From the NCBI GenBank assembly GCA_015493585.1, contig WGCW01000145.1, forward strand, positions 1 to 38,348: 38,348 nucleotides of DNA. Reading direction: 5' to 3'. The stretch comes from Acidobacteriota bacterium. Lineage in GTDB: Bacteria > Acidobacteriota > Thermoanaerobaculia > Thermoanaerobaculales > Sulfomarinibacteraceae. Both the position numbers and the translations under genes were made by a program. The notes beneath the pieces were generated by a model. That model worked only from the letters and a program-made list of their open reading frames with translations. It did not search any database and was not told the DNA's origin. Below, one piece after another: positions 1-38,348 of the stretch. Within the stretch, counting starts at the first letter, position 1. Every line of letters begins with the position of its first letter.

Positions 1-655
1 ATTCAACACTGTCCCCTACTCTCCGTTCTTCAAGACTGTGGAGCAAAGGAGTCAGAGGACAGTGTTGAATTTATGAGCCTTCCTCTGCGAACCCCTGCGG
101 TCGTTGCCCCCCGCCCAGATCCTTCGCGGTGCGCCTGCGGCACACCGCGAAGGATGACAGGGGGGAGGGAACCCCGAGTAGGGGACAGTGTTGAATTCAT
201 CTCAGCCTTGCTCTGCGAATCTCTCCGACCTCCGCGGTTGCCTTTTTCTCGCGGTCGTTCCTCCGCCCAGATTCTTCGTCGGCTGCGCCTCCTCAGAATG
301 ACATTGGGGGAAGAGCTGCGCCGTGGCAGAACACGAGTAGGGGACAGTGTTGAATAGTTGCTGCGAACGAAACGGGGTGACAGAAAGGCGATTCCCCCGC
401 CCAAATCCTTCGCGGTGCGCCTGCGGCACATCGCTCAGGATGACATGGGGGAGGGTGCGTTCGCCTTGGGTACAGCGTTCAGGATGACAGGGAGAGGGCG
501 GCTTCGCTTTCGGCACACGGCTCGGGATGACACGGAAAGTGGATGGGCTCAGGATGACAGGGGAGGTGAAGCAGCCAAGGATGACAGGGGAGGGAGTGAG
601 CGGCTCAAGAGGACAGTGGGGAGGCCATCCGAAGGAGGGGTTGCTCAGGCTGAGG
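1..655. repeat. Mosaic repeat island: ATTCAACACTGTCCCC/GGGGACAGTGTTGAAT motifs plus CGCCCAGATCCTTCG...AGGATGACAGGGG units
   Basis: ATTCAACACTGTCCCC at 1-16; reverse complement (GGACAGTGTTGAAT) at 57-70; GGGGACAGTGTTGAAT at 181-196 and 340-355. CGCCCAGATCCTTCG-like hairpin blocks near 113-160, 263-305 and 399-445. AGGATGACA-type units at 437, 481, 524, 551, 578 and 607. Confidence 0.85.
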
Positions 656-24640: not shown

Positions 24641-24785
24641 TGGTGATTATAGGTCCGGGCCGGGAGCATGTCACGAAACGGCTGAGATGAGGTTGTTGCG
24701 CTGTGCGCCCCTTCTTTGCGGGACAGGTGGGAAGAGGAATGAAACGCAGAGCCGCGAGGGGGCGGCGGCGTAGCCATCCCTCTGT

Positions 24786-24866
24786 TGTCATCCTGAGCCC
24801 ATCCCTTTTTCGTGTCATCCTGAGCCTATCCCTTTTTCGTGTCATCCTGAGCCGGAGGCGAAGGAT
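24786..24866. repeat. 27-bp tandem repeat TGTCATCCTGAGCC(C/T)ATCCCTTTTTCG, ~3 units
   Basis: TGTCATCCTGAGCC at 24786, 24813 and 24840, exact 27-bp period. Confidence 0.9.
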
Positions 24867-25079
24867 CTGGGCGGGGGAACGGCCGCAGGGAGAGCGAACC
24901 TGCCTTCGCCATCGTACGCCGCATTCTGCGCGTGGGTCGGCTATTCAACACTGTCCCCATTTCGTGAAGATCCATCTGGAGCATCTAACCGGGGAGATCG
25001 CGGCAGCGCAGAGAGAAGAGGAGGAGAGAGGGACAAGGGGGGTAGAGACAGTTTGCCTGGCCGTGCGAGTTGCTCCGCG

Positions 25080-25165
25080 TGGGGTGAAAGTCGCCATCTC
25101 GGCCGCCTTCTGGGGGAAAACTTGCAATTTCGGCCATTTCTTGGGGTGAAGCCGAAGCTGCGGCC
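25080..25165. repeat. Degenerate 31-bp direct repeats beginning TGGGG(T/G)(G/A)AA
   Basis: Unit starts at 25080, 25111 and 25142; the first two units share about 20 of 31 positions. Confidence 0.55.
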
Positions 25166-25284
25166 TTCGAATCTCTCGATCCTCGTTGGCCTTAGCGGCA
25201 GCGCAATGCCCGCGAGATCTCGTCCGCATCAGCAATGAGCGAGTATCACACCGGGTGGAGGAGACCCCAGGTCTATCGCCTGGG

Positions 25285-36033: not shown

Positions 36034-36738
36034 TCAAGGCCAGGTTGGTTCTGTCGATCCGGCAATCCTGAGCAGCCCGGGAGGATCGGTGAGGGTGATC
36101 TTTCTGCGGCCGATCTTGATGATGCCGCCCTCCTCCAGCTTGCGCAGCGTGCGTGAGAGGACCTCGGGTGCCGTCCCAAGAATGCCGGCGATGACGTGCA
36201 TGGGAATGGTCAGTGGGATTTCCGTGCCTGGCTCCACTGGCCGGTCGCCGCCGAGTCCAAGGAGGAAAAGCGCGAGCCGTTCCTCGACTTTCCGGTGGGT
36301 CAGCAGCTCCATCTTCGTCACGAGGGTGCGGGTCCAGGCAGACAATGCACCCAAGAGTGCGACGCTCAGCTCGGGGGTCGCTGTCAGGAGGTGAACGATG
36401 TTGTCTCGTGGCCACAACCAGAGCGAGGTCTCTTCGAGGGCGATCGCCGTGGCCGGGTACGTCCGTTGTCCGAACAATCCGACGGCGGCGAACGTCTCAC
36501 CTCCTTCGACGAGATGGAGCACGAGCTCCTTGCCGTCTGGGGAGCTCCGGACCAGCTTGATTCTGCCGTCGAGCACGGCCCAGAGACCCTCGCACGGGTG
36601 CCCGGCCAGGAAGATCAGCTCCCCCTTGTTCGCCCGGCGTGGCAACCCGGCCTGGATCATCGCATGCCGGTCTGCCGCATCAAGCCCCGCAAGCAGGGGG
36701 AGGGAGTTGAGCTCCTGAGGGTACCCGCCGTTCGTCAT
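36034..36738 (-). CDS. Crp/Fnr family transcriptional regulator
   Basis: cNMP-binding-like GELIFLAGHPCEGLWAVLDGRIKLVRSSPDGKELVLHLVEGGETFA and C-terminal HTH IAGILGTAPEVLSRTLRKLEEGGIIKIGRRKITL; no Fnr-type N-terminal Cys cluster. Confidence 0.9.
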   Translation of the reverse strand: MTNGGYPQELNSLPLLAGLDAADRHAMIQAGLPRRANKGELIFLAGHPCEGLWAVLDGRIKLVRSSPDGKELVLHLVEGGETFAAVGLFGQRTYPATAIALEETSLWLWPRDNIVHLLTATPELSVALLGALSAWTRTLVTKMELLTHRKVEERLALFLLGLGGDRPVEPGTEIPLTIPMHVIAGILGTAPEVLSRTLRKLEEGGIIKIGRRKITLTDPPGLLRIAGSTEPTWP

Positions 36739-36789
36739 CGCCGCCGATTGTACCCTGCCTAGGGGCACCCGTTTGATCAGGCCTGTATT

Positions 36790-37012
36790 GAGGGCGTTAC
36801 GCTGTGCCGCATCGTTCGGAGACAGCCTTGGAGCGCGGACTTCAGTCCGCATCTTTTTCTGCCACAACGCGTTGAGCGCGCAATGCGGACTAAAGTCCGC
36901 ACTCCCTCAGGCGCTCTCGCCGCGAGCGATCGCCTTGGCGTTGGGGTGAGCATGCTTCGATCGTGGTTGGATCCACTGGAACCACACGGGTTCCGCACAG
37001 CGCAACGCCCTC
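36790..37012. mobile_element. Candidate 223-bp MITE with 18-bp terminal inverted repeats and 5-bp flanking duplication
   Basis: GAGGGCGTTACGCTGTGC (36790-36807) versus GCACAGCGCAACGCCCTC (36995-37012): 17/18 complementary. GTATT at 36785-36789 and 37013-37017. Confidence 0.75.
36831..36905. repeat. Pair of REP-like palindromes GCGGACT-TC-AGTCCGC and TGCGGACT-AA-AGTCCGCA in head-to-head arrangement
   Basis: Perfect palindromic stems at 36835-36850 and 36884-36901; the flanking GGAGC/CACTCC makes the two inverted copies of each other. Confidence 0.85.
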
Positions 37013-37039
37013 GTATTGCATCGCGCGGCACAGAACGCG

Positions 37040-38023
37040 TTATGACACCACGAGGGAGGGGAGGCGTGTGGCGAGAATGTCATGCGCCTCGGTCACGGTT
37101 CGTTCGATCAGCTCGGCCACGGGCGGAATGTCCTCGATGAGGCCCACAGACTGGCCGACCGGAAGCAACCCCGCCTCGAGATCGCCCTCGGAGAGGAGCC
37201 GGAGCCCGTTCTTGCCGCTGATCAGCGGAGCGAGCTGCTCGATACCTGCCCCCTCCCGTTCCATGGCAGCAACCCGCTCGGCGAGCGCGTTGCGCCAGAC
37301 ACGTTCCGTGTTCTTGAGCGACCGGAGGAGGAGGATCGTCTCGGTTTCGCTCATCTCGACGAGCTTCTGCTTGACGGCCGGATGCACCGGAGATTCTTCG
37401 GTGGCCATAAACCGCGTTCCCATGTTGATGCCATCCGCGCCGAGCGCGAGCGCAGCGGCCAGGCCACGCCCGTCGCCAAAGCCACCTGAGGCGATCACGG
37501 GCACCTTGAGCCCGGACGCGGCGAGCGGAGCCAAGATCAACGAGGTAACGTCGTCCTCGCCTGGGTGGCCCGCGCATTCGAACCCGTCGATGCTGATGAT
37601 GTCGCAGCCGATCGATTCGGCCTTCTTGGCGTAGCGCACGGCCGTGCACTTGTGAATGACCAGCGCTCCGCCTTTCTTGATCCGATCGAGCCATGGCTCC
37701 GGGTTCCGGCCGGCCGTCTCGACGACAGGGATCCCCTCACCAGCGATCACGTCGATCAGCGAACCGTAATCCTTCGGAACGAGCGTTGGCAGAAACGTCA
37801 CATTGACACCAAACGGTTTGTCCGTCAGCTGACGCGTGCGGGCGATCGCCTGCTCCAAGCCCTTCGCATCCCCAAAGGTCAGCGCGGTCATGATCCCGAG
37901 ACCGCCGGCGTTGGATACGGCCGCTACGAGCTCGGGTTGGGCGACCCACATCATCCCCCCCTGGACGATCGGATGCTCAATCTGCAGCATCTCGGTCACA
38001 CGTGTGCGAATCAGCTGTGTCAT
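37040..38023 (-). CDS. Nitronate monooxygenase / 2-nitropropane dioxygenase family
   Basis: IEHPIVQGGMMWVAQPELVAAVSNAGGLGIMTAL, IGCDIISIDGFECAGHPGEDDV, VIASGGFGDGRGLAAALALGADGINMGTRFMATEES. Confidence 0.93.
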   Translation of the reverse strand: MTQLIRTRVTEMLQIEHPIVQGGMMWVAQPELVAAVSNAGGLGIMTALTFGDAKGLEQAIARTRQLTDKPFGVNVTFLPTLVPKDYGSLIDVIAGEGIPVVETAGRNPEPWLDRIKKGGALVIHKCTAVRYAKKAESIGCDIISIDGFECAGHPGEDDVTSLILAPLAASGLKVPVIASGGFGDGRGLAAALALGADGINMGTRFMATEESPVHPAVKQKLVEMSETETILLLRSLKNTERVWRNALAERVAAMEREGAGIEQLAPLISGKNGLRLLSEGDLEAGLLPVGQSVGLIEDIPPVAELIERTVTEAHDILATRLPSLVVS

Positions 38024-38133: not shown

Positions 38134-38348
38134 GAGGTTGTTGCGCGGTGCGCCGCTTCTTTGCAAGATTGGTGGGAAGAGGCATGAAACGCAGAGGAGC
38201 AGCCACCCCTTCCTTGTCATCCTTCGCCTCCGGCTCAGGATGACAGCGGGAGAATATGGCGGCTGAGGATGACCAGGGAAGAGCATGGCTCAGGATGACA
38301 TTGGGGGGCGTTCCGATGATTCAACACTGTCCCCATCTCGTGAAGATC
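38134..38348. mobile_element. Second (partial) copy of the composite element, truncated by the window end
   Basis: GAGGTTGTTGCGCGGTGCGCCGCTTCTTTGC..GGTGGGAAGAGGCATGAAACGCAGAG matches 24689 onward; then AGGATGACA units and ATTCAACACTGTCCCCATCTCGTGAAGATC (one mismatch to 24943-24972). Confidence 0.75.

Follow-up and report, generated by a model that had tools for sequence, protein, structure and literature searches.

A MITE family with 5-bp target duplications and a palindrome doublet kept between genera in the Sulfomarinibacteraceae

In the window, i.e., the whole 38,348-bp stretch of DNA analysed here, a 223-bp element lies between two genes of the minus strand: a Crp-family gene with its ATG at 36738 and a nitronate monooxygenase gene whose stop codon is near 37040. 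The ends of the element were read directly in the window as GTATT, GAGGGCGTTACGCTGTGC ... GCACAGCGCAACGCCCTC, GTATT, and the two 18-bp terminal inverted repeats (TIRs) match at 17 of 18 positions (Table 1). The interior carries two 16-bp palindromes in opposite orientation. A preliminary description made from the sequence had reported the element, its TIRs and the flanking GTATT pair, all of which agree base for base with the window; the two opposed palindromes and the GGAACC-ACACG-GGTTCC hairpin beside the right TIR were likewise found where it had placed them. Moreover, the window ORFs confirmed the location between the two genes, and the ORF list contained no transposase-sized reading frame inside the 223 bp, as had been claimed.

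Table 1. Elements sharing the common TIR in the window and their parts
Feature	Position	Strand	Evidence
Left TSD GAGAT, family-2 element	24684..24688	.	Sequence
Family-2 element GAGGTTGTTGCGCTGTGC ... GCAGCGCAATGCCCGC	24689..25213	+	Ends as in family 1; no recognised transposase ORF
Right TSD GAGAT, family-2 element	25214..25218	.	Sequence
Left TSD GTATT	36785..36789	.	Sequence; TSD tally of copies
223-bp MITE, family 1, GAGGGC subfamily	36790..37012	+	Sequence; copies; congener site without the element
Left TIR GAGGGCGTTACGCTGTGC	36790..36807	+	Sequence; 103 genome matches vs 2 for control
Left palindrome GCGGACTTCAGTCCGC	36835..36850	+	Sequence; kept between genera, compensatory change
Right palindrome GCGGACTAAAGTCCGC, inverted relative to left palindrome	36885..36900	-	Sequence; kept between genera
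GGAACC-ACACG-GGTTCC hairpin, adjoining right TIR	36978..36994	+	Sequence; poorly conserved
Right TIR GAGGGCGTTGCGCTGTGC (minus-strand reading)	36995..37012	-	Sequence; genome TIR matches
Right TSD GTATT	37013..37017	.	Sequence; TSD tally of copies
Left end of another family-2 copy, stopping at contig end	38134..38348	+	Repeat match

The single-strand fold of the element was stronger than those of 200 out of 200 shuffled sequences (z = -5.6 as DNA and -7.0 as RNA). The left palindrome, together with a T-run, gave a terminator-like match on the plus strand, which is a match to a consensus only and is oriented opposite to both neighbouring genes.

At least 41 copies of this family (family 1) were found in the source genome, a 3.1-Mb draft of 194 contigs, with identities of 81-100%; the count is a lower bound, since scoring covered 40 of the 118 initial candidates. 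The 18-bp TIR had 103 matches in the genome at up to three mismatches, compared with 2 for a reversed control. Full copies measure 216-225 bp and include a subfamily beginning GAGGGCGTT..., whose other members share 91-93% identity with the window copy, and a subfamily beginning GAGGTTGTT..., for which this value is approximately 80-87%; the left and right ends vary jointly between the subfamilies. Among the 33 full copies with both flanks present, 20 are adjoined by exact repeats of at least 5 bp (15 of 5 bp, four of 6 bp and one of 7 bp), whereas approximately 0.03 would be expected by chance. The length of the target-site duplication (TSD) was read as 5 bp because longer repeats occur at about the rate of chance extension. 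Approximately 12 of the 33 copies lack a clear TSD, which is unsurprising in copies that are old or have recombined. The search for many copies with differing 5-bp duplications, which the preliminary description had proposed, was thus successful, and a single-copy sequence is ruled out.

The congener G001 has the same gene pair in the same order and lacks the element. Specifically, the matches to the flanking genes lie 62 bp apart in G001 and 297 bp apart in the window, and the element plus one TSD amounts to 228 bp. Within the source genome, copy L025 sits inside a family-2 repeat, and its empty-site model (flanks joined, one TSD kept) aligns gap-free to unoccupied family-2 copies, for example, to window 25123-25211 with 92% identity. 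Empty sites, which had been suggested as a check, therefore exist both in a relative and within the genome itself. Long spurious ORFs are common in the source genome and mask the spanning-ORF measure of intergenic preference.

A second family has the same ends. The family-2 element in the window is 525 bp long, starts with GAGGTTGTTGCGCTGTGC and finishes with a related inverted end. Other family-2 copies are approximately 525-1290 bp long and have the exact TSDs GCCGC, GGCGT, AGGTT and CAGCA, and in several further copies the TSD matched at four of five positions. Because the ends are identical and the TSDs are of equal length, families 1 and 2 appear to depend on one transposase or on two that closely resemble each other, and it is very likely that the machinery moving family 1 also moved the family-2 element.

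Diverged homologs of the 223-bp element with the same layout were found in three other genomes (G005, G001 and G007). G005 belongs to another genus, and six of its copies are flanked by exact TSDs measuring 5-7 bp. Identity to these relatives is low overall (median 0.58) and is distributed unevenly: the ends reach 0.89 and 0.78 and the palindromes 0.86 and 0.91, whereas the remainder lies at 0.36-0.53. In 11 of 32 sequences, the left palindrome has G-C in place of an A-T pair, both arms having changed so that pairing is kept; this compensatory change may represent few events because the relatives share it. Covariation between the left and right palindromes showed no excess over shuffles. The right GGAACC hairpin is poorly conserved, with 76% of cells paired. 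Since the palindromes are nearly as well conserved between genera as the ends, they would seem to matter to the element. Their conservation and pairing support their being an integral, constrained part of it, rather than a chance REP insertion. Most likely, the palindromes would act in cis as local hairpins or symmetrical protein-binding sites, and they might thereby serve transposition or insulate the element from neighboring transcription.

With a probability of approximately 0.93, we consider the 223-bp sequence to be a MITE, i.e., a DNA transposon that is non-autonomous, is mobilized in trans and generates 5-bp TSDs, because it combines multiple copies, TIRs, TSDs and empty sites with conserved ends and palindromes and the absence of an internal transposase ORF. 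A transposase made elsewhere would bind the 18-bp inverted ends, and a staggered cut at insertion would duplicate 5 bp of the target. The short TIRs and the fixed TSD length suggest that this transposase is of the DDE type.

Two other explanations concern the nature of the sequence itself. It might be a conserved intergenic sequence of ancestral origin, or the Crp/nitronate-monooxygenase locus might encode a structured RNA here, as the strong predicted fold and the TSD lying 46 bp upstream of the Crp-family start codon could suggest. However, the orthologous spacer of the congener is without the element, which excludes the conserved ancestral spacer that the preliminary description had named as the outcome speaking against an insertion; many copies occupy unrelated sites, and Rfam gave no match near the gathering score, so that the chance of this explanation being correct is negligible. 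A REPIN/RAYT origin is likewise very improbable; under this model, a Y1 tyrosine transposase would copy the doublet as the replicating unit, with the TIR/TSD shell being secondary. Movement by a Y1 enzyme would not be expected to produce TSDs, and the exact 5-bp duplications that adjoin the TIRs identify the TIR-bounded unit as the mobile one. The doublet folds strongly, and its two palindromes are inverted as in REPINs, a class of inverted REP doublets associated with RAYTs (PMC3116915). However, the RAYT-type Y1_Tnp profile (PF01797) had no match in the source genome, and none of the 96 palindromes in 307 kb of host DNA, sampled around elements, was more than 230 bp away from the end of an element. 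In addition, the palindromes bear neither of the GTAG or CGTC tags that are present in most REPs (PMC3733652). Genome-wide, 100 matches to a longer palindrome pattern were obtained, mostly as pairs approximately 54 bp apart. The palindromes had initially been called REP palindromes; the inverted doublet is indeed there, but without a tag, without copies off the element in the sample and without a RAYT, they are not demonstrably REPs. At rather less than even odds, the MITE might have taken up a REPIN-like doublet as a working cis-element that is now spread in a TIR-dependent manner and not by a RAYT; the doublet would then have been retained, compensatory change included, as the remaining sequence of the MITE diverged between genera.

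The remaining question is which transposase moves the MITE. The description of a non-autonomous element mobilized in trans was supported, except that the expected transposase gene with the common TIR on its borders was not found in the assembly; we therefore infer the mobilization in trans. Profile searches (PF01609, PF00665 and PF13701) and inspection of ORFs beside TIRs identified no autonomous partner in the 194-contig draft. Three genes matched PF01609, none of them with the common TIR on both sides. Two belong to the IS1634 family and have TIRs different from those of the MITE, which speaks against an IS1634-derived MITE as far as the assembled sequence goes; an unassembled IS1634 element with the common TIR could still exist. 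PF00665 (rve) matched one gene with no TIR nearby, and PF13701 (IS1380 transposase) matched nothing in the genome. ORFs at 16 further loci, mostly beside unpaired TIRs, showed no recognizable transposase when judged by eye, and no TIR pairs at the distance of an insertion sequence were found in G000 (the source genome), G001, G005 or G007. Plasmid sequences gave no match; TIR matches in viral contigs seem to be due to chance, being lone ends for which no convincing second end was seen.

The third PF01609 gene, an IS4-like transposase (G000:C16, L119:1388-2656), could be considered as the partner, with families 1 and 2 being its deletion derivatives. A family-2 right half ending in the common TIR starts within approximately 20 bp downstream of this gene. 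However, the gene is surrounded by its own perfect 12-bp inverted repeat, GCAACGGTGTTG, which separates it from the family-2 half, and the matching left TIR is absent. It is also a single copy, and searches of 100 relatives and genome_contigs returned only a remnant and a few weak or partial matches, none tied to the TIR GAGGKYGTTGCGCTGTGC. We thus regard this gene as an unlikely partner. For the MITE moved in trans, the partner could be missing from the draft, be located on another replicon, belong to a family outside the three profiles or have been lost. It was observed separately that all three DDE_Tnp_1 genes (L118, L119 and L120) adjoin half of a TIR element: a family-2 left half in C48, a family-2 right half in C16 and a third end type in C97. 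This three-out-of-three adjacency is curious, though repeat density is high.

Bacterial MITEs include RUP, NEMIS/Correia and ERIC, and some contain an internal functional motif, such as the IHF site in a 155-bp Neisseria element (PMC2229807). The family described here resembles them in being short and non-coding, with TIRs whose 18 bp fall in the range of roughly 15-30 bp usual for MITEs, a TSD, many dispersed copies and presumed mobilization in trans. It differs in its TIR (GAGGKYGTTRCGCTGTGC), its 5-bp TSD in place of TA, its GC-richness and the conserved inverted palindrome doublet in its core. TIMEs also have a 5-bp TSD, and Tn3 ends are approximately 38 bp long and begin with GGGG, whereas the TIR here is 18 bp long and begins with GAGG; these end features do not fit a Tn3-derived TIME. 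TIMEs are Tn3-derived miniature elements, non-autonomous and with inverted ends like the present family (PMC4133298). REPINs likewise consist of two inverted palindromic repeats with a spacer and can form hairpins (PMC3116915), whereas the doublet here lies within a TIR/TSD-bounded element. The duplication length is similar to that of IS1634 and IS1380 as well. IS1634 produces duplications of approximately 5-6 bp and IS1380 of 4-5 bp, but the two IS1634 elements found in the source genome have other TIRs, and PF13701 detected no IS1380 transposase there. No MITE with such an architecture was found in a limited literature search.

This is a new MITE family that is ordinary in kind and unusually well supported, and its palindrome doublet is kept between genera. 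It has its own end sequence and TSD, was amplified in one species and has diverged forms in other genera of the bacterial family. Because only the ends and the palindromes are kept between genera, natural variation points to a testable cis-function of the palindromes, and their conservation bears on the relation between MITEs and palindromic repeats in bacteria. For annotation, the 223-bp element and its family-2 relative should be regarded as insertions; since the former was inserted between two minus-strand genes, the leader of the Crp-family gene was lengthened by transposition.

Several minor observations were made on these elements. The G005 copies L081, L093, L109, L188, L190 and L192 are flanked by repeats of 6 bp (four copies), 5 bp (one) and 7 bp (one), so the TSD length may differ between lineages: 6 bp predominates in G005, and 5 bp does so in the source genome. 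The family-2 interior (window 24684-25218) contains the further dispersed repeats GTCATCCTGAGC and ATTCAACACTGTCCCC. Window 1-356 and 38326-38348 contain repeated GGGGACAGTGTTGAAT / ATTCAACACTGTCCCC, which fits GGGGWSAS, a motif in the TIRs of some tyrosine transposase genes termed TIRtrons (PMC3733652); no Y1 transposase to accompany these repeats was detected in the source genome. A third type of end that has the common TIR (GAGGGCGTTGCGCTGTGC TCGTCGTGGAGG...) was seen at L035:900-1537 (G000:C158), where an apparent HigB/HigA-type toxin-antitoxin pair comes after it. L120:2537 (C97) holds a second copy of the end type, and no opposite end was found. Finally, at L033:1-154 (G000:C42), the first approximately 33 bp of an element end are followed by an inverted copy of its own flank (GGCTGGCGGGCAACTCCGGATG), which may reflect fold-back rearrangement or an error of assembly.
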